Positions 979-62,100 of a DNA stretch of 64,000 nt are shown piece after piece. Position numbers and translations under genes: made by a program. This DNA is from Diphasiastrum complanatum (Eukaryota > Streptophyta > Lycopodiopsida > Lycopodiales > Lycopodiaceae), in contig CM055096.1 in assembly GCA_029204225.1 (NCBI GenBank), positions 31,253,767-31,317,766 of the forward strand, given 5' to 3'. The notes under the pieces are model-generated. The model saw only the letters and a program-made list of their open reading frames with translations, was not told the DNA's origin and ran no database searches. Every line of letters begins with the position of its first letter. Within the stretch, counting starts at the first letter, position 1.

Positions 979-2499
979 TTAGGGGCCACAAATAAACATT
1001 AAATTCTAACCACAACTTTATGAGTTGCATCGATGTTGGCAATACCTTCATACGCACCATGATATGGCCTGCTTACAAACTCAGAGACACATTACATCAT
1101 ATTTCTCTTCAAAACTGTGTGCACAACGTGTAGGGTAATAGGAAAATATCAGAGTAGCATCCCCAATATCAGGACCTGTGATTACGCATTTCTTTACATG
1201 CATTTGTCTCTCATATGTAATCACTTTTAGGTGCGAGCCGACAACACTAATCGTACCTTGACATCTTCAATCACTTGGGCAACTTATGCCATTATGTGTA
1301 GGCCTCCTCCTCCTTCAAGATCATCCTCACTTCACGAGACAGTCCTTTTTTGCCTCCTGCCCTTTCAATCATTCAGAATACCCACCTCCCTTTCTACCTC
1401 TCCGAGGCTGTACTCACCCTTTGGATTATTTCCCCATGCTCAACCTAAAGACAGTGCTATCTCCTGCAACCATCCCCCTTCTGAGATCCGTTTCCTTTAC
1501 TCAGGATTCTCCCTCCCTCCGAAAGCTGCAACTAAGCCCCTCCTGGCCAAATGATTTTTGTGGATCAGCGCAGGATATTTATGCTTTATTGTAGACAGGG
1601 CCTTTTTTTTGGCAAGGCCAAAAACACAGCATTGTATGTACATTGATGTTGCGTTTTCTCAACAAATGAGTAATTTGAGATATGTCAAGCAAGGACAAAG
1701 GATAATGAGGACCCTGATGTGACCAGCAAGAACAGAGAAGCCTCGAGCTAAAGGAAAAGTATGAAATAAACTGGCTGTACAAAGGAAGGTCAATATCAAG
1801 AAGTATGCAGGGGGGTGGGAGGGAAACCTGGGTATCACCTATAAGGGCAACATCACCTAATGCTATCTCCATGGCACTTGCAATGTCAAGTAGGGAGAAT
1901 GTATGGCTCTCAAGGCTAGGGCTGAAGAATCAGCTCAAGTCTGTCAGATTAGCTCCAAGAAATAAAGGCTAAAACAGAGGCAACAGAATCGAGAGTGTAG
2001 AAAGTGTCTAAAAGAGACAAAAAAGATATTGTGGAAAAGTTCTCCACTAAATTTGCAGTTAATTCCCTTACCATATCATTAAGAAGTGTGTGACTGATTG
2101 AAAAAGCTGAAAATGCAACTTCAACTATCAGAGATAAAGCAGGAAAGAAGGCAAAGGGGAAAGCAGTAATTAGGGACATGATCAAGAGGAGGGAAGTGTC
2201 AGCATAGGAGAACAGACCTTCAAGCTCTCTGTTTAAAATGTAGATAATTTCTGTGTAGGTAAAGGTCCTAGCCATTGAATCCTTTTTGAGGAAGTAGACA
2301 GGTTATCATGGTGGAAACTTGGCCAAGCCCATGATGATAATGAGGTTCCAGAACTGACAGATAGAAGAAGAAGGCACATTTGGAAAAGCACACGTGTACC
2401 AGTACATCCTCTGACATTGTCATCCACCATCACGATGTTTTCTAAATGATCATCTCAGGACTTTATTTGATAATATCATTGTAGACAAGTTTGACCTAT
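979..2499. other. No supportable gene
   Basis: AT-rich sequence with short chance reading frames on both strands, none with a recognisable domain or splice context. It lies in, or downstream of, the ERI1-like minus-strand gene. Confidence 0.4.
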
Positions 2500-2775
2500 A
2501 TTTAGATGGTTGACATGGGTGCCCTTTTGTGAGCACTCTTATCAGTTTTACTTGTTATAGAATCCCTTTTCTAGCTACATGGCTAAGTTTCTTCACAGTT
2601 TTCTCTCAAAAACGTCTATATCCCTTTTGTAGCTACATGGCTAAGTTTCTTCACAGTTTTCTCTCAAAGACGTTATTTTTGCTCTCTTCATTAGTAACAT
2701 ACTTGAGATGTACCCATTAGCCTTATGTACCTATTGGTACCCCGAAGACATTAATATAACTTTCTTTCTTTCATT
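2500..2775 (+). mobile_element. LINE 3'-end fragment with TTTC-rich tail
   Basis: The stretch ACTTGAGATGTACC..TTATGTACC..TTGGTACC, then ACATTAATATAAC and (CTTT)n, matches the 3' ends at 59645-59748 (plus) and 58253-58111 (minus), which end in (TC)n. It is therefore a 5'-truncated copy of the same non-LTR family. No open reading frame remains. Confidence 0.5.
2562..2676 (+). repeat. 58-bp tandem duplication
   Basis: A unit beginning ATCCCTTTT(C/G)TAGCTACATGG and running through TTCTTCACAGTTTTCTCTC occurs twice with a 58-bp period and few differences. It lies inside the LINE-tail fragment. Confidence 0.75.
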
Positions 2776-3121
2776 CCACATTGGCCCTCAAATTATTACT
2801 TTTGTTTCCAATCCCAACCTCAAAAGAACCTGCTCACTTCCACACAGATTTTTAAAGTTTATTAAGGACCAAAGTGTCAACAGCATCCAAAAATCAGATT
2901 GAGGCTAACATATTCGTTATTCATAATCAATGCAATCATAAAAAAAATACACATGCACCATGTACATTAAAATGTTCTCAATAGTACAGAGATATTCATG
3001 TCAGATTTGAAAATATCCAGGATAATGTTGTCTGGTAGTCTGAGAGTCAACATGTATCGCTGTAATTTTGTCCACTGGAAGTTTAAGAGTCAAAATACCA
3101 TAGCTACTAGAAAATACTTAC

Positions 3122-3247
3122 CACGTCACAAACGCTGCATCCTTGAGCTTGTTGGAACCTTTTGAATCCCAAATATTGTGGCTCTCTAACCAAGCTTCAA
3201 ATAACTTCAGAGTCTCCGTAAAAGGTATGGCTGTATCATGCCACACA
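3122..3247 (-). CDS. ERI1-like 3'-5' exoribonuclease, internal exon
   Basis: On the minus strand this exon encodes VWHDTAIPFTETLKLFEAWL followed by ESHNIWDSKGSN..AAFVT. That matches the middle of the plant ERI1-like DEDDh exonuclease family, just after the RINEYIEGKYG region. The donor is clear: the coding strand reads GACGTG|GTAAGT. The acceptor could be GATAG|TGTGTGG at 3247, which puts the boundary at the conserved VWHD. It could also be GGGCAG|ATT at 3270, which would add eight residues. The exon ends in phase 2, as expected for a following C-GNWD segment, which I could not find between 1 and 3121. The family trims RNA 3' ends (small RNA and rRNA processing). The same gene continues at 22969 and 26324, so the introns are very long. 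Confidence 0.75.
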
Positions 3248-3270
3248 CTATCAGCAGAGACGGTTATAAT

Positions 3271-5658
3271 CTGCCCAGCAGAAATAACAAGCTTTATTTA
3301 AAAATCAAACTCATGCATATGAAATATGGTGTTCCAAGCAGCAAGGGCTTAAAAGACATTAAGAGAATACCCACTTAGAAAAAAAATTTCTCTGATATGT
3401 AAAAAGACCGTCTTCTGGAACAGCTTCAGTTTAACCTGACATCCCTTTTTGAGAACATGTCACAACGCTGAATCTCTTTCAACTTGACTAGTCAAGGGAA
3501 CATTTTCACCAGGTGACTAATTACTGCAAGCAAGTCATAGTAGTTGACTTTCAAAGATAGTCTCAACTTGTTCTTGCTTATTTTGACAAGGTTACCGAAC
3601 AGCTTTTCAGGGGCTTCTTGTGGCAGCATGCTGCAGAGAATTATGTTGCGGTTTTGGTCAAGAGGCATTTAAAACAAACCAGGAGACAGTCTATTTAGAG
3701 CATCGGTAAACTTCCTCGTGTTGTCCCTGTCAGGGGGCTCTTAGGACCTCATATCCAGCCTACCTCATCAGAAACAGCTCTGGGCCATCCCTTACACTAC
3801 TCCAAATTAAAAAAGGCCTATATTGGGACTCCCTTCCATTCCAACAGATCTTACAACAAGCTTCTTCCTTGCCTTTCAGTTGTCTGTGCAAGCTTAGCAA
3901 CAACCTCTACAATAAACTTTGTTGCAAACGATTTCTTGCAATGAGATCCTAGCGAGGCAGTGACTAGAAATTCAACTTGCATGTCAGGAAGTCAAGTCAA
4001 ATTTGACCTGTGATGCCAAGACAGAGAGGACAGCGACGCTGTAATGTGAGTTTGCATTGTTTGGTGCTGAAGCTCTCATTAGTCAACTTGAAGGTTATTG
4101 TATTAAATACAGCATTGGATAGATAAATTGCCCTTACTTTGCTTAGCTCATGTCCGGAACACGTTGTTGTACTATTTTGATGGTTTTCTACAACGTTACT
4201 GGATCTATTAAGTTAATAGCAGCAGCTATGTAAACTACCTGTGGGCCTATGTTCATAAGGAGTCTCAATAAACTCTGCATTGTGAAGAGTCAAATTCTTA
4301 AAGACACATAACAGTTGCCTATCAGTCTACCAAATGCTATACCAATGGAACATTTTCAAAAAGTTGCTCTACTGGGAGTTGAAGTGCACAAAACAAGGAG
4401 AGAGAATGTAGCCTTCCCAAAATATTAGGTAGTAGCGGTGAATTTTGTTGCGACTAAGATATTTTATGTACATAAAAGGGAGAAGATATTAGGTGTCTGA
4501 AATGTCCAGCAACATGTCTCTTTCTCTGCACTGTCCTTATTCATGAAGTTGAGATATATACATAATGTTCTATGGATGCACAGCTACTAATTTGGCTTGA
4601 GAAAATCAACTTTGCGTTCAATGAGTACAATTTTGCTACTTCAATGTATAACTCTTCTGCAGCATATCAGTCAAGGTTATGACTCTTGTATCCAGGGAAG
4701 ACAGATTAAAGCTATAGCTCTTACTTTCCTAGATGGAATTAAGTTATTGAACCCTGAATGCTCTTCAACATAGATTCAGAATCTATAGGTTGAATCTTGA
4801 TAGAATACCTCTTTAATGCTTATGAATTACTATCTACAAAAAATAAGCTGATTGCATTGATGTAATAAACTTTAAGGTTCAAACAACAAATCACTGCTGG
4901 AAATCAAAGGCATTCCGGGGGACAAAAATGGTTATCTAACAGGAGTATACTCTGAAAGAGTCGTCACTCTACAATTTTAGATAAAAGAGACATCAAGGGA
5001 GGGTCGCATGTAATACTAGACAGACCTGGAGGTACCAATGGAATAAAGGTGTGAGAATTGAATAATCATCATCGTTGAGTTTAGGGGAAGCATACAATGT
5101 ACACACAATAGATCCATATGGAACAGACCAGGCACATATCAAACGGCATTCCATGCATTGTCTGTTCCATTCCGTAAAATCTAGGCACGGTTCCAATTAA
5201 CCATGCTACTGTGGCGAAACATAGATTTCTATGTCAAAAATCTACTACGACAGAACATTGAATGTTCCGTACTGCAAATTAACCAGGGAAAGAGTACAGT
5301 GTTAAAAGTGCTGGCTAATTCTATGGGAAAAAAAACATTTCGGTAACTACAAGAAAGTGTGCATATAAGCAAAACCAGAGGGTTCTTTTTTATGGGGAAA
5401 GTGTGCACATAGCTGCCATCTTCCACAATGCAAGAAGGTTAACTTGGGCAAGCTTTTGAGAATTATAACATACACTTATAATGAGAAGAGGCTAGGATAG
5501 TATAACCTATCTCTGAAAGGTGCTTTTGAATGTCAATACTATCAATCTAACCAGGTTGTAAGTCTTAGTACTAGTACACCCTGTAAAGAATGAATTCTAA
5601 CACTTGATATCCATCAAACCTGAATTGAGTTGATTTGCCTCTTAAGGATAAGAAACAT
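3271..5658. other. Long intronic or intergenic stretch, no supported gene
   Basis: Probably intron of the ERI1-like gene. A short minus-strand stretch near 3498-3670 looks coding (LFGNLVKISKNKLRLSL) but has no recognised family or splice context. Nothing else supportable was seen. Confidence 0.4.
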
Positions 5659-5663
5659 GTTCA

Positions 5664-5807
5664 TGTTGGAATATCAATCCACACTCTAGAGAGAACTATC
5701 AAACAGGGCCGATAGCTTAGTGGTAGAGCATCCCATCCCGTATGAGGGAGGTCCTGGGTTCAAATCCTAGTCTATCCATCCATATTATGATTTATGGATT
5801 TCTAACA
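5664..5807 (+). repeat. TRIM 5' LTR
   Basis: TG...CA bounded and 144 bp long, followed directly by the primer-binding site. It contains a tRNA-like stretch at about 5706-5778. Confidence 0.93.
5706..5778 (+). promoter_or_regulatory. tRNA-like segment with Pol III boxes in the TRIM 5' LTR
   Basis: Box A-like TAGCTTAGTGGTAGAGC (5713-5729) and box B-like GGTTCAAATCC (5757-5767) lie about 45 bp apart, as in a tRNA gene. D-stem and T-stem pairings can be drawn and acceptor positions 1-3, 6 and 7 still pair. The anticodon arm has an enlarged loop and no convincing anticodon, so this is a tRNA-derived promoter rather than a working tRNA. Confidence 0.75.
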
Positions 5808-5820
5808 TGGTATCAGAGCC
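5808..5820 (+). promoter_or_regulatory. Primer-binding site of the TRIM
   Basis: TGGTATCAGAGCC is complementary to the 3' end of plant initiator tRNA-Met and abuts the LTR without a spacer. Confidence 0.92.
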
Positions 5821-5911
5821 AAGTTAGACCTAATAGTTCATGGTGTCAAAGCCATGGTTAGGTGGCCCAAGTTGTGGGGCAGGCGACAGCTAGGACCCCA
5901 ACCAAGTGTGG

Positions 5912-5923
5912 CTTGAGGGGGGG
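5912..5923 (+). promoter_or_regulatory. Polypurine tract of the TRIM
   Basis: CTTGAGGGGGGG lies directly before the 3' LTR, the expected place for plus-strand priming. Confidence 0.85.
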
Positions 5924-6065
5924 TGTTGGAATATCAATCCACACTCTAGAGAGAACTATCAAACAGGCGATAGCTCAGTGGTAGAGCATCCCATCTGGTA
6001 TGAGGGAGGTCCTGGGTTCGAATCCTAGTCTGTCCATCCATATTATGATTTATGGATTTCTAACA
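5924..6065 (+). repeat. TRIM 3' LTR with tRNA-like segment
   Basis: A 142-bp copy of the 5' LTR. Its box A is TAGCTCAGTGGTAGAGC and its box B GGTTCGAATCC is a perfect consensus match, so this copy is closer to a tRNA than the 5' one. Confidence 0.93.
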
Positions 6066-6070
6066 GTTCA

Positions 6071-6740
6071 GATATAGGGGAAGCAAGTACTCAGAAAGCC
6101 TTTCGAAGTAAACATTACAATTCTGCTGCCTAGTATAAGCAGAAATGATTAGAAAGACAACTCGTCCTTCATGTCAAATCTCCAAAATTTTGTCTCGGTT
6201 TCTACATTACAATTCACCAGCATTTGCATACGTAACACGGTACACCAGCAGATAAACCAAGCTAAGACTGGTAGCTCACATAAGTTGCTCTAATCAATTT
6301 CTCTCGCTTGCCTCAACTTATACCTTACTTACAGAAAGAAGTATGATCTCTTTTTGGTTGACATTGAGGAGAAATAAAGAAGCCAATTCATACACCAGCT
6401 TAAACTTATACAGCTTATGTCCATAGAAAGGAACAAAAATCTACTATGGTAGAAATATTCAGCAATGTATGGAAGCTACACTTATTCAAGATGTCCAGTT
6501 AACATCAAACATGTGAAGAAAGGGTGCTGCTAGCTAATTGCTCCTGAAAGGTTCGCCCATGAACATACAATATTCTCGACTTGACAGCACATATTTACAG
6601 CACATTTAACTTGACATCATGCAGATTAGATCTACTTATAACAGAAAGACACAATCGATAGACTAAGAAACTAACCGTTCTAAACCCCATCTGCCATATT
6701 TTCCTTTGATATAATCTCCAAGCTTTTTCTCACTCATTTT
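6071..6740. other. No supportable gene
   Basis: AT-rich, probably intronic. It ends in a pyrimidine-rich run and TTTTTGCAG, which resembles a plus-strand splice acceptor. Confidence 0.4.
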
Positions 6741-6745
6741 TGCAG

Positions 6746-7057
6746 GTTTCACAAACCTGGAAGACAAAACAGCCAGCAGCCAAAAGTTTCTCAGACACAG
6801 AATTTGCAATCGAACATAAAAGACTTTTTAACAATTCCTGTCTTGTTGATAATGAGCTACAGGCTCTACGAACAAAAATTAACACACCATTCACAAAATG
6901 CATTGATACGTATGCAATGATTCTTTCAAACGCCACATGGGAGCATCTAGTTGCAACCAAACCACAAATGGAAGCAGTAGAAGCAGAGATTGAAGAACAG
7001 GCACTTCAAAAGATCCCAGGAACCTTTCCTAGGATATTGAATACTTTCTTAGTCTAA
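6746..7057 (+). CDS. Possible plus-strand exon, family not recognised
   Basis: After an acceptor-like TTTTTGCAG the plus strand stays open for about 100 codons (VSQTWKTKQPAAKSFSDTE ... NATWEHLVATKPQMEAVEAE). Composition looks like real protein: charged, partly helical, no low-complexity bias. A second open piece follows at about 7150-7237, after a T-rich run and AG, and ends in a stop (QMKALIESIMTVVPSLEYRS). No good donor was found between the two. It lies on the opposite strand inside an intron of the ERI1-like gene, so it could be a gene fragment carried there by a transposon, or a small nested gene. No family assignment is offered. Confidence 0.3.
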   Translation, partial: VSQTWKTKQPAAKSFSDTEFAIEHKRLFNNSCLVDNELQALRTKINTPFTKCIDTYAMILSNATWEHLVATKPQMEAVEAEIEEQALQKIPGTFPRILNTFLV

Positions 7058-9578: not shown

Positions 9579-10475
9579 ATCCTCTGAAATCTGGGAGTGT
9601 CCATGGATCTACCTATCTCGATAGCAAGCTGGTGAGAAGAGACTCGAAGCTGTCCCATACTATATCTCAGACCAAAAGATAGCGGCTAAGTAAGATATGC
9701 TGGAAGGATAGGAATGCCCGTAGCATCCAGCCATAATAGATGTGTGCCGTAATAATGTATCTTGACCCTATCAGGATCAGGCTGTGACCATATAGTGCGT
9801 ATGTAGCTCCGATAAATCTGTTGTTTGATATAAGCATGGGTCCCGCTCAGAAGATCAAATGCAGATAACCCCCAAGTCTGAAGAAGGGCTGAGACGCTGC
9901 TATACCAAGAGTGCTTGGCTCCCTGTCCAGCAATGGTACGAGATGAAGTGAGAGCAGCAACAACGAATTTGAAAGTATCTAAATCTGATACCCTGTGAAG
10001 AAAGGTAATGATCTGAAACATCGCACCGATAACCAAGGGAGGGGAAGCAAACTCTGCTAGTATGATATCATGTAGCAACGAGGGCTTAGCCCGGATCATC
10101 CTGCTGAGCATGAGAATCTGGATACGAGTAAGATCCCTCCATGAATCGTGTGATAAATCAGGGCACCAAGTCTCAGCAGAGTATAAAACAACTAAGGAGA
10201 CAGTAGCAAAATAGTAAGCATCTGGTAGCAGGGTCCTGCACATAGTATGTGGAACAAAATCTCTCCATATGAACAAGAGTGGTATGCTCCTTACGGAGCC
10301 TAGTGAGGGCTGTTGGTCGAAATGTGAGTAGTGAACTAGAGAAAAGTACTCCCAAATAGGTGTAAGAGGTCACGATCTCAATCGGTGGCCCGTCATAGTA
10401 GAATACCACATCTCTCATATGCTGTCTATTAGTGTTGAACACCATAATCTTGGTCTTCTTAGTGTTAAGCGTCAA
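9540..10475 (-). pseudogene. LINE A ORF2 C-terminal part
   Basis: LNTKKTKIMVFN and VTSYTYLGVLFSS are the region just after the YADD active site in L1-type reverse transcriptases. The helical C-terminal part follows (YSAETWCPDLSHDSW, MIRAKPSLLHDIILAE). It ends with MGQLRVSSHQLAIEIGR and CQLC, a cysteine-rich end found again at 55040 on the plus strand. The active site itself is not present. Confidence 0.8.
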
Positions 10476-14009: not shown

Positions 14010-14447
14010 AGTTATGGACTTGGCTCATTACATTCGCCGCGTCCATTTACATTTACTTTACTTTATGCATAAGCAGGCCTTGGGCCCTTTTTATTCATTA
14101 GTGACACTTAGACTATATGGTTGGCCTTTGGCCTTATTATTCATTATTAAGCCATTTGGACATATGACTGGAGAGTGCGGGCCTTCTTGGAGGGCGCACT
14201 ATTATCCTTCCCAGTTAGGCCCTAGCCACCGGAAGCTTCCTTTTAGGGCTTCCTCTTGGCTATAAGTAGGGAAACTGTGTCATTTGTTATTCAGCTAATG
14301 ATATTGATCTCTTTAGTCTCCTTAATCTCTCTCTTTTCTGCTTTCTAGGGCTAAGTCTTGCTTATGTGCTGCTTTCATAGCTTAAGTCTTGCTTATGTGA
14401 TGCTTTCATAGCTTAGCTCTAGATCAGTTGTGGCTCCATTCGTAACT
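14010..14447 (+). repeat. 5' LTR (AGTTA...TAACT)
   Basis: 438 bp. It begins AGTTATGGACTTGG and ends CATTCGTAACT, with the primer-binding site next. The termini are inverted AGTTA/TAACT instead of TG...CA. Confidence 0.88.
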
Positions 14448-14459
14448 TGGTATCAGAGC
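14448..14459 (+). promoter_or_regulatory. Primer-binding site
   Basis: TGGTATCAGAGC directly after the LTR, complementary to initiator tRNA-Met. Confidence 0.9.
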
Positions 14460-15300
14460 ACTTTCCTGTGCACTACTTTTTCAGATTTAGTAGAGGCTGT
14501 CCAGCGCCCTACTAACCCATCACTTTTGTCGATTTTTTCATCAGATTTCCATCGTTTTTTCAGATTTAGTAGAGGTTGTTCAGCGCCCTACTAACCCATC
14601 ACTTTCGTCGATTTTTTCATTAGATTTCCATCGTTTTTCCAGATTTGGTAGAGGCTGGCCAGCGCCCTACTACCTTGTCACTTTCGTCAATTTTCTCCAC
14701 CGATTTGCTGCCCATTTCGTGGCTTGATTGGAGGCTGTCCAGCGCCCTACTTCATCACCATTTTCAGCGGTTTTCTCCAATTTTTTTTTATAAGTTATTT
14801 ACAGATTTTGGTAGCTACTATTCAGCGCCCTACTACCTTGCCATCTTCGACGGATTTCTCCACCGATTTGCTGTCCATTTTGCTGATTGTTTGGAGGCTG
14901 TCTAGCGCCCTACTTCATCACCATTTTCAGCGGTTTTTCCATCATATTGCAGGAAGTTTGTGGATCTTACTAGCTGCTGCCCAGCACCCATTTTCAGCTT
15001 GGATCTTCAGCTCTCTCTCTCTCTTTAGCCTCTTATCCAAAAATCACCCAATTCCATAATCGTTTGCTATTCCAAATTGCCAAAATCCTGCAGCCTGTTC
15101 ATCGCTGCCCCAACCCTTCCGACTTGTCACTTTCACCTATTATTTTATCCGTTTCCAGCCACCTTTCACAGTTTATCAAAAGGCTCTCCAGCGCTCATCC
15201 TCAACCACATTTCACAGAATTCCGACTCTGTTTGATATTCCAATTTGACATTTCCCTCCTGGCTGTCCAGCGCATTTTTACAGCCTTCATTTTCACTTTT
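14460..15300 (+). repeat. Repetitive leader with CCAGCGCCCTAC units
   Basis: The words GGCTGTCCAGCGCCCTACT (and variants), CGATTTTTTCATCAGATT and CATCACCATTTTCAGCGG recur many times in order, building degenerate tandem units of roughly 85-200 bp. It is non-coding. Similar GGCGCCC-bearing leaders occur at 21847-22290 and 58714-59400. Confidence 0.75.
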
Positions 15301-17894: not shown

Positions 17895-18248
17895 AGTTAT
17901 GGACTTGGCTCATTACATTCGTCGCGTCAATTTACATTTACTTTACTTTATGCATAAGCAGGCCTTGGGCCCTTTTTATTCATTAGTGACACTTAGACTA
18001 TATGGTTGGCCCTTGGCCTTAGCCACCGGAAGCTTCCTTTTAGGGCTTCCTCTTGGCTATAAGTAGGGAAACTGTGTCATTTGTTATTCAGGTAATGATA
18101 TTGATCTCTCTCTTTAGTCTCCTTAATCTCTCTCTTTCCTGCTTTCTAGGGCTAAGTCTTGCTTATGTGCTGCTTTCATAGCTTAAGTCTTGCTTATGTG
18201 ATGCTTTCATAGCTTAGCTCTAGATCAGTTGTGGCTCCATTCGTAACT
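17895..18248 (+). repeat. 3' LTR (AGTTA...TAACT)
   Basis: 354 bp, the same ends as the 5' LTR but lacking one internal block present there. Preceded by GTCGGGGAG. Confidence 0.88.
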
Positions 18249-19649
18249 TGTGTTTTCTTGGTCATCTCAATATCTCAATCCTCTTTTTTTATTTGAAACG
18301 TGGACCTTCAACACTAGCAACATTGAACTAATTTATACGTGAAAGAACTTTGTCCCACTACCATATTCTGCTTCACTTGAGGATGTAGTAACGGTGGGCT
18401 ACTTCTTGCTTAACCAAGAAACTGCAGAATTTCCAATGAAAAAGCAATGACCACTAGTAGAGCGTCTAGTGTCTTGATCTCCAGCCCAATCTGAGTCACA
18501 AAAACCAGCCAAACATGCATCATCACTAGAAGGATAAAACAGACCAAGTGATTTACTTCCTTGAAGATATCGAAGGATCTTCTTCAATGCTTTCCAATGT
18601 GATGTCAACGGAGCATGCATGAATTGACTCATGAGGGAAACACTATAAGATATGTCTGGTCTTGAGTTGCATAAGTAAATGAGACTTCCAACCGCTTGAC
18701 AATATAGTGTAGTATCAAATGGTTCACCACCACTTTGATTACTTAACTTCAGGCCCGTCTCAATTGGTGTAGATTCCAGCCTTTCCTTGCAAAAACTCAA
18801 GACCAAGGTAGAAATGCAATTGGCCTAAATCTGATGTATCATAAACTGAAGCAAGATCAGATTTTAAGGCTGCAATATATTGTTCATTACTACCCGTAAT
18901 GACCAGCAGGTTGTTGAAGGTAAACTTCCTCATTAAGATCACCATTGAGGAAGGCTGTCTTTATGTCAAGTTGGTGCATACGCCAACCATGATGGGCAGC
19001 CAAAGCAGTGACTATCCTTACGGTAGTTATTCGTGCGGTAGGTGCAAAAGTTTCCTCATAATCAATGCCCTCCTTTTGCGCATAACCTTCGGCAACAGGT
19101 CTTGCCTTGTACTCTTTCCATGTGGAAGATCAACAAGAACCCATGTTTGGTTCTTTATGAGTGAGTCATACTCCTCTTTCATTGCGCCAACATTTTACTC
19201 CTCTAGCCTACTCATAAAAAACAGGTTCTATTGCACTATCCTCAATAGATGTAAGAGCAAAATCAAAAAAATCAGCAAATTCTACTGATTTAGATGAGGC
19301 ACGAGTCTTCCCTTTATAGAAACGGCTCACTTTGCTGTCCTGCAAAGTCCTGCAAAGTCTGCAACAGCCATTTAGGGACTGGTTTAGGCTGTCCAACAAC
19401 CTTACTTTGATCAACGCTTTGTTGTCCAAAGTGATCTGAACTATCAACACTTTGCTGTCCAAAGTGCCGTGAAATTGGACTATCCTGTTCAAAGTTTTCA
19501 ACAGGCCGTTCCTCTTCATAAATCTGCTCCTCTCGATGAATTATGGGCTATTTGCTTGAAGAACCAGTAGGCTGTCCATTAGAGGAAGTGGCAGTCCCTC
19601 CTCTTCAAGATTAGATGGTGATACCAAATCTGGAAACACTTCAACATAG

Positions 19650-20249
19650 TCATCTTGGGGGATGTCCCTGCGGTGTGTAAGGTGTAGTCATTTGATGTAG
19701 AATGCCTTTGCTTTGAAGAAACGTGCTGAACGTACTTTTAGTGTATTCTCCTCCTCGGTCGGTACGTAGTATCTTCAAAGTATGCCCAAATTGATTTTCT
19801 ATCATAGCTAGAAAATCTTTGAAGCGTTGAAAAACTTCAGATTTTGCCTTCATAGGAAAGATCCATGTAAACCTTGAAAAATCATCAATAAAAGTAAAGA
19901 AGTACTTGCATTTACCAATGGATTCGGTCCTCATTGGACCACATACATCACTATGAATTAAGGCAAACTTATCACCAACTTTGATAGTCCCATCAATAGG
20001 AAAAGGCTTCCATTGAAACTTACCAAGTATGCATCCTTCGCATACATGTCCTTTGGGATGCTCCATATTTGGAATGCTTTCCACCATGTTGAATTTCTTC
20101 AACATATTCAAACTTCCAAAATTGAGGTGCCCGTACCTCGCATGCCATAGTTTAGCCAATTCCAATGCATGTGAATTAGTAGCAACAAGACCAAAGGATG
20201 TCAAAGCTTTAGGTTCATAAATATCCAACAAAAACAAACCTCCTCGCAA
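19650..20249 (-). pseudogene. Copia integrase region
   Basis: An HHCC zinc-binding region (LWHARYGHLNF ... CEGCILGK) followed by the catalytic core start (LIHSDVCGPM, FIDDFSRFTWIF, ILRTDRGGEYTK). This is the usual copia order before reverse transcriptase. Fossil, incomplete at its end. Confidence 0.85.
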
Positions 20250-20805
20250 TGTTCCCGAAGCAACAATTAAAAGTGATCTCTTTGGGTCTTTTATAAGACA
20301 TGTCTTCTTTAAATTCTACAATCAATCCTTGATTCATGATTGTAGAGACCGAAATGAGATTTTTCTTAATCTTAGGAACATAAAGTACATTTCGAATGAA
20401 TTTTTTTTTCTCCATTGGGAAGAATGAGTCGTATAGATCCAATGCCTTCAATTGGATAGGAGGTGTTGTCAACATCTTGAACCTTGCTTCCATCTTTTAT
20501 TTTCATAAGCTTTGTGGAGACGTCTCTATGGTGAGTCATATGGCGTGTAGCTCCGCTATCAATCACCCAATCAATGAAAGAAAAAACAGCAACCAGCAAA
20601 GCTGAAGTAGTGTTGTTTTCTGCTGAAAAACCAGCAAGTCGAGAAGTGGTAGAAATCTCATTTTGATTAGAAATGAGATTGTTAGTGACAAAAGCAAAAT
20701 CACCATTGAAAGAATCATCCTCCTTTTGATGTTCTAATGCAATCATGGTTGTATTTGTATCAATACCTTTCTCTTTATCCTTAGTAAGCTTCTTCCTACA
20801 TTCCT

Positions 20806-21615
20806 TTATGTGGTGCCCAAACTTTTTACAATAATGACACTTACCCTTCTTTTTGGATCCTTGATCTTGGCCTTCCTTGGAACTTTGATCCTCGGAAGAA
20901 GAAGGCTTACCTTTCCACTTGCCCTTGCCTTTGCCTTTGGTGAAGAAGGCTTGATCTTCTTGTTCACCAAAATTAATCCTTGTTTGCTCTTCTTGGAGAA
21001 GTAAGCCAACAAGCTCTTCAAAGGAGATTTGTTGTCCCCTAAGAGATATGCTTTAAGTAGACACAAATGGAAGATAGGAATGAGGAAGTGAATTAAGAGT
21101 AATTGTAACAAATTGAGAGTTCTCAACAATTTCGTCAATGCTAATAAGAAGCTCTTCACGAAGATCCTTGATCTTCATTAAGTGATTTGAAAGCGTATCA
21201 CCCTCTTGCATCTTCAATGTTGAGAGTTGATTACGTAGAAAAAGCACTTTCACCGTATTCTTCACTTGGAACATCTTGGCAAGTACTTCCCAAGCACTCT
21301 TGGAAGTCTTGCATGATCGAATGTGAGGTAGGATTGATCTCTTCACGGATAGCGCCATGACCGAATGTGCTTGTGCATCACGTCGATCCCACTTCTTTTG
21401 TTCTTCGGAAGACACCTCCACATATGTTGAAGAAGTAGCTCTTGACGGTGTAGTAGGTGCCAAACTAGGTGGCCTCTCTTCATCACCACTTACAACTTCA
21501 AACAAACCTTTAGCAATAAGGAGGTTTTTGATCATGTAGCACCACAAGGAGAAATTAGTTCCATCCAACCTATCTTCATTGAACAAAGAACCTATAGATT
21601 CAGATTCTTTAGCCA
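20806..21615 (-). pseudogene. Copia gag region
   Basis: DRLDGTNFSLWCYMIKNLL and the helical part (SAWEVLAKMFQ, LSTLKMQEGDTLSNHLMKI) are typical of plant copia gag (UBN2/DUF4219 type), followed by a lysine-rich linker and a zinc knuckle. Fossil with frame breaks. Confidence 0.8.
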
Positions 21616-21699
21616 TTTCTGAAAATTCAGCTAATAGTAGATGGGAAAAACAGATTCCAGGCCAAAATCTCTTATATGTAGCCATTCATTTGTATGAGA

Positions 21700-22290
21700 C
21701 ACACTTTTGCTAAGCAATCTACTGTTCATATTGGCTGTCCACAAGTTTCTACAAGAGGGTCATCTAACCATCTCTCTCTTCTCTTTGAGAATACTTTGTG
21801 TTAATGAATAGTCTTGATTCTGGATTCCTACATGGTATCAGAGCCATTTTTCAGAATTGATTGCTTGCTGGAGGACACCCAATAGGCAGCCACATTTCTC
21901 CTCTTTTGGTTCATAAAAATCAGAATTTTTCTGATTTTTGTGGAGAGAGAACTGTTTGGCTCCTTCTTGTTTTTTGTGCAGAAAATTGCAGGGAAAAGCT
22001 TGGAACCTCCACTCATTTGGGAGCCAGCAGTAGGGCGCCCATGCTCAACTAGTTTTCATGTGATTGAAATCAGATTACATGCTTCAAATTTCAGATTTTC
22101 TTCTTGGAGGAGGGCACCCATCTACCTTGAAGACAAATGTGTTTTTGACACAATTTTAGTGGCTGAAATTTTTCTGTTTTTGAGCTTGGAAGAAGGTCCT
22201 ACCATCTGCTCCATTAGCACATTCAGTGCACACCATTTTATCACAAAAGTTCTGGTTGTGTTTTGGCTTCATTGGAAGCCTGCATATTAG
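21700..22290 (+). mobile_element. Copia LTR tail, primer-binding site and leader (plus strand)
   Basis: An LTR end (TGGATTCCTACA) is followed by TGGTATCAGAGCC at about 21833. A leader with repeated GGAGGACACCC, GTAGGGCGCCCATGC and GGAGGGCACCCATC motifs follows. It is like the LTR plus leader at 58272-59400. No gag follows. Fragment. Confidence 0.65.
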
Positions 22291-22439
22291 TTAATATTCT
22301 GTTATTTCAGCAGAATACAGCCACCTATATCTTCTTGTGAATGAGCTATTGCATGTGGTGTATTGCAATCTATAGTGCTCACTAATTCAGCTTTGATCTT
22401 GCTGATTTTTTAGTTAGTCCAAGATGGCTATCTACCTTC

Positions 22440-22672
22440 ATGACTGTTGGCTGTCCAATAACTTGACTAATGGCTATCTAGCTACCATAAGTTACATAAA
22501 ATGATTAAGTACCCCAAATAACAAGTTAGATACTTAATTCACATGTATAGGCCCCTAGTGGACCCACGAGTCCCTACAAGTTAGTTTCATACTAACTTGG
22601 GCCTAAAATATAAATGACCATGGTTACACAGATCTTGACCTTTTGGGTCATAGTAACCTATGGCTTCTACAT
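22440..22672 (-). repeat. LTR U3 fragment related to the 58272 LTR
   Basis: Read on the minus strand it shares CCATAGGTTACT.TGACCC, AAAAGGTC and TGTAACCATGG with the start of the LTR at 58272, on the opposite strand. Confidence 0.6.
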
Positions 22673-22968
22673 CATTTACATTTATTATTCTAATAAAAAA
22701 ATTGACTACTTTGTGATGCCACAAACGTCTTTGTCAACCTTGAGGTAGCTCCCTCTAGTTGGCTAGTTATTGGTAAAGCCTTTGATAGAATACAATGTCA
22801 ACCATTCGCCTTTCTAATGATGAAATCTTTCCATACCTAGCAATAAATCAACTAAAAATCCTTTTCCTAAGTGCACCAATTAAGATTGCAGTACAAATGA
22901 ACATCAAGAGCGCATAAAAATAAGCTTCTTCCAAGATCCCAAGGATAACATTAAGCAACTAATAGTAC

Positions 22969-59754: not shown

Positions 59755-60390
59755 GTTGAACCCTATGCAAAACCGGTATGCCTTCTTTTGTTTTATAACC
59801 TTTTTGAAAAAAACAAATCCGCTTTGAGCAGTCCGTCCAAATTCCACCATTTCAAAAAGACAATTCTTTCATCAAATCGCAGTTCGAGTGAACATTGTTT
59901 GCATACATTTTTTATTTCTTTGAGCTGATACTAAAGCTAGGCTTGCCAAAACATGAAAAAACTCATATATAGCGAGTAGTTAACTTCGCATGATAAGTTG
60001 TGACCCTCTTTGGCATCTATTGCAAGCACATTTACTTCCTTTAAACACATTGATCAAGATGAACAGCAAAATAGTTCAGGCTTCCTAACCAAGTGCCTTA
60101 AAAAAATGCAGAAAGGACCAACAAAACTCTACAAACTTTGCTGAACTTCCTAGGACCTTGATAAGTCCTGACCCTATTTAGCATCTTTTGGATGCACATT
60201 TACTAGTTTTTTAAACATTAACTGAGATGAGCAGCAAACAGCTCAGGCTTCCTAAATAAGTGTCTTAATAGTACAATGCAAAAAGGACCAAAAATATACA
60301 AAACTAGCTTGAACTTTCTGGTACCTACACTACCTTCAAAAAGAGCATCATAACCCAAATCATGACGCCCAGTTTTGTGGTATAAGTTAT
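59755..60390. other. Probable GT47 intron or 3' flank
   Basis: Two copies of a stretch with CTTCCTAA(C/A)(C/T)AAGTG, AAAAGGACCA and ACATTTACT lie near 60010-60120 and 60170-60290. No coding sequence was recognised. Confidence 0.4.
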
Positions 60391-60393
60391 TAC

Positions 60394-60551
60394 CTGCAGC
60401 AAACCTTCATGCAGCTCAACGTAACGCTTGTAAGGTATTGACTGAAGGATAGCTTTCAGATTATATACATCACGCTCTCTTAGGATCACTGCATACTTTT
60501 GCCAATCCAGCACATCATTGAAAGGCAAATCATAGTGATCCGACAGGATCA
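60394..60551 (-). CDS. GT47 exostosin-family glycosyltransferase, downstream exon
   Basis: A 158-bp minus-strand exon with acceptor GTATTGCAG|TGATCC and donor TGCTGCAG|GTAATAAC. It encodes VILSDHYDLPFNDVLDWQKY, then AVILRERDVYNLKAILQSIP and YVELHEGLLQ. This is the conserved end of the exostosin domain, where nucleotide sugar is bound in the Golgi lumen. It joins in phase to 61329-61561 (CCAG + TG gives P-V). The last exon, normally with HFxW..PP..YDAFHMVMYELWLRR-like sequence, was not found to the left. Confidence 0.92.
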
Positions 60552-61328
60552 CTGCAATACAGACCACATGTTCACAATCAGAATCTAGAAAGATAGCCCA
60601 TCCCAGAAAAATCTCATGCACAAAACCAAATTTAGAGCTGATACAGCAGTATACTCGAGGAATACATGATTGTTGAGTCTAAAACATTGCTGACAATCAA
60701 AAAAAGATGCAGATCTGAACTGAACTTCAGGGGTGCAGTCTCAAAGTAGTAAACCAGGACGATGAAGTTCATCATGGGCAGTTTGGACTATTCTCCTGAC
60801 ATTCCTACTTTAATCACTAGAGGCCATACATAAATTCAGTCACATGTACAAAGACATTAAAGTGAGAAACTACTCTAAGACATTAAAGCCAAAAGACGTT
60901 CAGCAATTGCCTGAAACCTCGTTCTAAAGTGAAGTAGGATAAAGAACCTCAAGAACCATGCCAAAAATTTTCAGAAAGTTCAGCTTCCCTTGAATTTCAA
61001 ATTCTTCACTTTCCTGTTAGTGGATTATTTTTATTACCATTACTACAGTTGGTATTGAGGTAAAGTTTTTCTCTTTCAATAACCATGGGGAAAGCTGAAG
61101 AATATCCTAAGCTGGCAACAATGGAACTAAACATCATCATAAAACCTGACCAGAGATAAATTTATCGTAAGCCAAAAAAAGCACGTGACCATGAACCATG
61201 CAGCTATTAAACGTTAACTACTCTTTAACCAGCTTGAAAATCAAAGCAGAGCAAACTACCATATAGCCCCATAAGAAGTTGAATATTAACAAACAACAAA
61301 ACGATTTTAGTAGAAACAGATTTAAAAC

Positions 61329-61561
61329 CTGGAACGCAGCCATAGTGGATGGAGTCTGTGATCCGTGCACTGTTGACCTGGGACCCTCCTGGACAGATGC
61401 AGAATTTGCTCCTGTAGAAAGTCTTTTGGTAAATCAGCTCTCCAATAGCTCTACTTATCCTATTGTTACTGATTGCAAGCACTGTGTCATTTTCCCAAGC
61501 TCTGGCCAATTCAACTCTGATTTTTGAGTTTCTGTGACCTGCCCAGAAACCAAGAATTGTC
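61329..61561 (-). CDS. GT47 exostosin-family glycosyltransferase, core exon
   Basis: A 233-bp minus-strand exon with acceptor TTGACGCAG|GACAATTC and donor GTTCCAG|GTTTTAAA. It encodes TILGFWAGHRNSKIRVELA, AWENDTVLAISNNRISRA, FYRSKFCICPGGSQVNSARI and DSIHYGCVP. The PGGSQVNSARI...HYGCVPVILSD run is the hallmark of plant GT47 proteins, type II Golgi membrane enzymes that add sugars to cell-wall polysaccharides. Which polysaccharide cannot be told from two exons. Upstream exons with the transmembrane and early lumenal part should lie to the right but were not recognised. The frame is intact with no damage. Confidence 0.93.
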
Positions 61562-61564
61562 CTG

Positions 61565-62100
61565 CGTCAACGATGGGTTTGTTATGGTCTAAACACCTCA
61601 AGAGCAAGAACTTGAAGTAGATTCCACAGTCCAGACACAAAGTGTTCAAAATGCTACAACATGGCAGACATGTCATCGAGAACCAAAAGTTCAGCTCAGT
61701 GAGAAATGACTATTCAAATCAAATCACCCCAGCTAACACATGTCTTGACAAATATAGAAGCAGTCCCACAACATATTACAGTGCTCTAAGCCTTAAATCC
61801 AACCTATGAATCACTACAGAACATATGATAGCTATTAGCTCTGAAATAAATATATAAAATATTAATTCAACCCAACTATCATGTATCTTGATGGATATAC
61901 AGTCAGGCACACATCACCCAACATAATAACTAGAGACAAAGGCTAGATCATAGTTTCAAAGCATTCCTTATGAATGTAAGGAACATTCCCCAAAACATTA
62001 GGATGTTCCAATTGGAATGTTGCTCCATTCGCACTTTTGCCTTCGGTGCAGGGAGGTAGAGAGGAAGATAACGGAGCAGGGAGACAGAAAAGAGGGTTAG
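61565..62100. other. Probable GT47 intron
   Basis: AT-rich, no domain recognised. Confidence 0.4.

Follow-up and report, generated by a model that had tools for sequence, protein, structure and literature searches.

TRIM elements whose LTRs contain a tRNA-like sequence were described by Kojima in 2024 from fungi, animals and one plant and were named Helenus, and the term TRIMp3 was proposed for TRIMs of the RNA polymerase III (Pol III) kind (PMC10886601). The one plant family listed there, Helenus-1_SMo of Selaginella moellendorffii, has an LTR of 120 bp, an interior of 85 bp and a 5-bp target site duplication (TSD); Kojima favours insertion of a SINE into the LTR as the origin of Helenus and expects, but does not show, transcription by Pol III (PMC10886601). 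The description is repeated in a 2026 meeting report. A comparable arrangement is found in Cassandra, a TRIM that forms tandem arrays and carries a Pol III-type internal promoter in its LTRs in the form of 5S rRNA sequence (PMC7215508, PMC10853983). Other plant TRIMs resemble the element described here in size, LTR-interior-LTR layout, lack of coding space and the occurrence of arrays in many families, whereas the word tRNA appears nowhere in the main text of the survey that covers them (PMC4717578). In the literature searched, with most subscription papers outside its coverage, we found no other paper on tRNA-bearing plant TRIMs, and the family reported here, its second relative and the Copia chimeras described below were not found in print.

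The element lies in a 64-kb stretch of the Diphasiastrum complanatum genome, hereafter the window, where reading of the sequence reveals a complete TRIM of 402 bp plus flanking duplications at positions 5659-6070. The anatomy outlined in the original prediction was found in full. A 144-bp 5' LTR (TGTTGG...CTAACA, 5664..5807) and a 142-bp 3' LTR (5924..6065), both on the plus strand, enclose a 116-bp interior (5808..5923), and exact GTTCA duplications (5659..5663 and 6066..6070) flank the whole unit. The interior opens with the primer binding site TGGTATCAGAGC, which adjoins the 5' LTR (5808..5819) and which we take to be of the initiator-Met tRNA type, and closes with the polypurine tract GAGGGGGGG (5915..5923). 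End-to-end alignment of the two LTRs gave 95.1% identity; the differences, three single bases, one adjacent pair and a 2-base gap, all fall within the tRNA-like block.

This block, also predicted at the outset, was confirmed by two types of search. ARAGORN called a tRNA-Thr in each LTR (5706..5778 and 5963..6035) and made no call in 2,000 dinucleotide shuffles of either one, while the Rfam tRNA model RF00005 matched the 5' LTR with 40.6 bits and the 3' LTR (5969-6030) with 34.7 bits, against a gathering score of 29. A scan of both strands for the combined box A and box B pattern returned only these two sites in the 64 kb. In the 3' LTR the boxes are TAGCTCAGTGG (5971..5981) and GGTTCGAATCC (6015..6025), as originally quoted; those of the 5' LTR differ from the quoted ones, reading TAGCTTAGTGG (5713..5723) and GGTTCAAATCC (5757..5767), and still fit the Pol III consensus. 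Just 5' of the block in the 5' LTR stands a CAA triplet (5700..5702), near which Pol III may start. When the block is drawn as a tRNA, its anticodon arm is irregular. An Rfam search of positions 5400-6400 with E up to 1 detected no 5S rRNA; its matches were the tRNA, twice, and a weak snoRNA.

The element therefore shares with Cassandra the primer binding site TGGTATCAGAGC (PMC7215508) and the general design, with a tRNA in place of the 5S rRNA (PMC7215508, PMC10853983). To this extent the idea of a tRNA counterpart of Cassandra was right, but the kind had already been described, as Helenus (PMC10886601). Both Helenus and the TRIM studied here are small LTR-interior-LTR units (311-1263 bp and 402 bp, respectively) with a tRNA-like block in each LTR (box A TRGCY...YGG, box B GGTTC), a polypurine tract and a primer binding site complementary to a tRNA, here the stretch next to the 5' LTR (PMC10886601). 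Plant and fungal members of Helenus make 5-bp TSDs, as this family does; tandem arrays, reported from one fish family of Helenus, occur here too; and Copia, the likely partner of the fungal families, is here physically joined to the TRIM in chimeras, none of which is described for Helenus in the portions of the paper covered (PMC10886601). With 144 and 116 bp for LTR and interior, against 120 and 85 bp, the element differs from Helenus-1_SMo when the two are compared by lengths, not sequences (PMC10886601). It looks like a new plant family of the Helenus kind, set apart from Helenus-1_SMo by these described lengths. The further suggestion that the LTR had captured a tRNA is unproven, since SINE insertion is the origin favoured by Kojima and the anticodon arm is irregular here.

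The distribution of the family was analysed in the 1.745-Gb genome. A search with the whole element produced 1,291 first-look candidates, a rough pointer to copy number only, of which 40 were scored (42 rows, corresponding to 41 loci). The family is dispersed: when 50 bp of flank were compared, the 42 scored matches resolved into 35 sites. The element measures 402 bp at 5659-6070 and at L001, and 403-406 bp at the other 39 of the 41 loci. An exact 5-bp TSD was present at 28 of the 35 sites; L020 and L027 show one mismatch each, L005 and L016 lack a fitting one, and L026, L033 and L034 adjoin their own purine tract instead. The LTR pairs of the 35 sites differ at a mean of 3.0 positions, a value that leans toward young insertions because the sample consists of the closest copies. 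A second search, which used the interior only and so made no selection on the LTR, yielded 1,125 candidates; 40 were scored and 30 cut out, and all 30 contained at least one stretch of the family LTR, some of them overlapping places already found.

For the LTR itself we assembled 120 copies of at least about 100 bp from 71 loci, non-redundant by sequence plus flank, though not all independent. Coarser clustering by shared 25-mers placed the 71 loci in 47 groups, so that some sites sit in shared repeats. ARAGORN called a tRNA in 115 of the 120 copies and a tRNA-Thr in 104. Box A (TAGCTYAGTGG) was exact in 96 copies, box B (GGTTCGAATCC) in 99 and both in 79; one or the other was altered in the remaining 41. 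With a tRNA in 115 of 120 copies, the block is not an insertion private to the copy at 5659-6070, and neither such privacy nor relatives without boxes A and B, the two outcomes that had been named as contrary to the original prediction, was seen in this set. Among 34 of 63 tRNA-like places examined no clear host tRNA donor emerged, the closest being L098 and L099, which belong to the second family described below. An exact 21-base pattern from the LTR head had no matches in the viral contigs or the genome contigs of the collections scanned.

Several loci are not separate insertions. L001 was rejected as an independent copy: it duplicates the locus at 5659-6070 (99.9% over 3,402 bp), and its element is 100% identical to the one in the window although the two LTRs of that element differ from each other. 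Shared flanks were observed in the pairs L001/L002, L016/L017, L018/L019, L009/L021, L022/L036 and L113/L114. L022/L036 is one place fetched twice; the remaining pairs lie apart on one or two contigs and are segmental duplications or uncollapsed haplotypes in the assembly. One further LTR of the family (L055:1617-1819) is longer by about 60 bases, located between LTR positions 37 and 42 and immediately 5' of the block.

Among the 35 copies, 82 differences fall on the 146 positions of the block, 23 on the 142 positions of the other LTR sequence and 43 on the 116 positions of the interior. CG and CHG are plant methylation contexts. Sites in these contexts account for 80 of the 148 differences on 42 of the 404 positions, and 64 of the 80 are C-to-T or G-to-A changes. 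The excess in the block is thus due to its CG/CHG sequence context, and the boxes are not exempt from post-insertion decay; the idea that hypervariability of the block signals RNA modification or selection was accordingly rejected. As for CpG, each LTR holds three, all inside the block, box B included, whereas the rest of the LTR and the interior have none (1.7 and 8.1 expected from base composition, respectively). That CpG is kept in the block only, though CG/CHG sites decay fastest, hints at constraint in the source lineage. Against this hint, the block too is below its expectation of 5.8, and CpG is low across the window (observed/expected 0.44).

A second family of tRNA-bearing TRIMs was detected (hits L098 and L099, flanks L113 and L114). 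It is represented by a single insertion, seen twice because the surrounding stretch is duplicated (L113:902-1181 and L114:892-1171, minus strand), with a 153-bp LTR (TGTTAG...TTTTCACA), a 73-bp interior containing TGGTATTAGAGCC and a purine tract, and a truncated 5' LTR. The tRNA blocks of the two families are alike far above chance (0 of 1,000 shuffles as good), but the LTR sequences around them are not (247 of 1,000 shuffles as good for the upstream part and 742 for the downstream part); the interiors are weakly similar (19 of 1,000). The second family retains box A and the D and T arms, while its acceptor stem, as far as the letters can be read, seems unpaired. An internal promoter would leave such a pattern, and this single insertion is a second hint at constraint.

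Tandem arrays occurred in the sample selected by interior, with more than one interior unit in 7 of the 30 loci (L044, L045, L049, L052, L061, L064 and L065, where L064 and L065 are one array). L044 (887-2024) comprises five LTRs and four interiors. Three of these LTRs match only to position 116 owing to a deletion near the LTR end, and the identical deletion in all three indicates that a shortened LTR was multiplied within the array.

At four loci (L063, L069, L070 and L072) the 5' TRIM LTR is missing and other sequence precedes the TRIM primer site. L115, a 9.9-kb stretch around L070 on contig C4, revealed a fused Copia element at 1190-6985: a Copia LTR (1190-1633) is followed by the TRIM interior (1634-1749), a TRIM LTR (1751-1894), a second primer site (TGGTATCAGAGCTACC) that starts the Copia interior at 1895, gag-pol pieces between 2553 and 6136, and the Copia 3' LTR (6546-6985). 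The Copia LTR pair is 97.3% alike, and a GACTG duplication stands on either side of the entire fused element. The coding frame is split into several pieces; the gag piece matches PF14223, a later one PF13976 and a third has no Pfam match. L069 and L072 are fused in the same order (in L069 the Copia LTR lacks its first 9 bases), and no upstream flank is common to any two of the four loci. Together, the 5-bp duplications of L115 and the unrelated upstream flanks of L069, L070 and L072 indicate that fusion preceded transposition, and they support movement of the fused element as a unit. L072 hints at a separate junction event, since its Copia LTR is no more than 87% alike and the final bases of that LTR agree with the end of the TRIM LTR. 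At L063 the TRIM unit is preceded by a Copia LTR, itself behind a stretch that resembles the purine-tract region of L115, with no Copia interior afterwards, so that the TRIM unit there follows an apparent Copia 3' LTR. In L033, the first 465 bases, immediately 5' of a TRIM array, agree at 98% with the Copia interior of L070. As these chimeras were found by a search with the TRIM interior, the near-identity of their TRIM part is in part a product of selection.

The window itself contains a Copia-type element of the chimera lineage (18363..22693, minus strand), with ORFs at 18399-21685, a PF14223 gag at 21053-21685 and an LTR-like stretch at about 22600-22693. Its ORFs match L115 at 55-78% protein identity, and the DNA matches as well. 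This element is a candidate relative of the autonomous partner. For the RVT_2 ORF of the window, identity was at most 58% among the matches listed in a protein search (120 of 7,940). The window is full of retrotransposons: direct repeats at 14010-14449 and 17895-18250 (98-99% alike, about 3.8-3.9 kb apart) are probably the LTRs of another one, and tandem 79-bp units occupy 14477-14713, behind a stretch resembling a primer site. Its few host-gene signals include a GT47 exostosin-type glycosyltransferase gene (PF03016), seen as two exon-like pieces at 60325-61566 on the minus strand. A minus-strand ORF of 227 aa at 9686-10369 gave no Pfam match and no homologue among 295 candidates. Elsewhere in the genome, a matK-like pseudogene (L042) had 10 protein matches from 249 candidates: a gymnosperm, Pseudotaxus, was best at 41%, an unnamed protein reached 43% across a shorter length, angiosperms gave 31-36% and a fern 26%, and lycophytes were not among the 10, a result that speaks against a flowering-plant host.

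We consider it likely that the family is a non-autonomous LTR retrotransposon of the Helenus kind, presumably driven by Pol III from the boxes in its LTR and mobilised by Copia, with units joined at the primer site that the two have in common. The boxes and the block are the basis for inferring Pol III transcription. Pol III factors would recognise boxes A and B of the 5' LTR and transcription would start near the CAA just 5' of the block, at about LTR position 37-42, leaving some 42 bp of U3 and 100 bp of R-U5. In plants, upstream CAA triplets act as Pol III start sites, though just 36-45% of angiosperm tRNA genes carry such a triplet within 10 nt (PMC11700998). Here a CAA is present no more than 10 nt 5' of the block in 60 of 62 LTRs (8 of 70 lacked a readable box A and were excluded), which, the triplet being common by descent, do not amount to 60 independent cases. 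The element itself lacks a Pol III terminator, and the RNA would read through the interior into the 3' LTR and end in a T run of the flank. TTTT is missing from all 35 elements; as it is also missing from 3,363 of 5,000 resampled sequences, its absence is uninformative and was rejected as a sign of Pol III. Packaging in trans would then fall to a Copia family with the identical primer site; reverse transcription would follow, with strand transfer via the repeated part of the LTR, and then integration by the integrase of that Copia. Strand transfer or crossover at the common primer site would at times generate TRIM-TRIM arrays and TRIM-Copia chimeras.

Transcription by Pol II from the LTR, with the block as a passenger by descent or with a role in the RNA (processing, stability or packaging), is an alternative that we hold to be unlikely. 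The acceptor stem, D arm and T arm can pair in the copies viewed (L027), which a role in the RNA would explain too; yet in the second family box A and both the D and T arms are preserved amid unlike LTR sequence and the acceptor stem seems unpaired, a pattern that agrees more with a promoter than with a complete tRNA structure. A chance resemblance, or a SINE that entered the LTR of the copy at 5659-6070 late, would also give a tRNA match, as tRNA covariance models detect tRNA-derived SINE heads as well. Such SINEs, non-LTR elements without LTRs and primer binding site, have a tRNA-like head with boxes A and B as the TRIM does, and, unlike them, the TRIM has LTRs, a primer binding site, a polypurine tract and mostly exact 5-bp TSDs. 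The TSDs enclose the entire LTR-interior-LTR unit, the block occupies one fixed place in the aligned LTRs, and neither the silent shuffles nor the calls in nearly every LTR copy agree with a chance or late origin, which is extremely improbable.

Regarding the mobiliser, Copia of the fused lineage may be what moves the TRIM. It is quite possible, if on balance doubtful, that the chimeras arose by ordinary DNA recombination between a TRIM, or a one-LTR TRIM circle, and Copia and are uninformative on this point: TGGTATCAGAGC adjoins the LTR end in both elements, enough for a crossover at the DNA level, unequal exchange could yield the arrays, and exchange easily produces the order seen at L063. 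This explanation sits less well with the 5-bp duplications around the fused element of L115 and with the fused order shared by L069, L070 and L072 amid unrelated upstream flanks, and the common primer site and 5-bp TSDs fit Copia anyway. Since crossover between a one-LTR TRIM circle and Copia gives the same product, co-packaging is plausible, not proven. Beyond the favoured reading of a Pol III-driven, Copia-mobilised TRIM, a more far-reaching proposal, which we put forward as speculative, is that the Pol III TRIM and a Pol II Copia swap LTR-interior modules at the LTR/primer-site junction; Copia would thereby gain a Pol III promoter in its leader and spread as a two-polymerase hybrid, and exchange between TRIMs would lead to tandem arrays.

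These results bear on genome annotation as well as on the elements themselves. Because ARAGORN reports a tRNA-Thr in 104 of 120 LTR copies, annotated tRNA numbers for this genome may be too high. The 2024 definition of Helenus included one plant species, and the genome analysed here adds a young plant family whose boxes are largely intact. Together with the second family sharing the block and the Copia fusions, it makes two matters testable: whether LTRs of this type are indeed transcribed by Pol III, and which autonomous element carries the TRIM.
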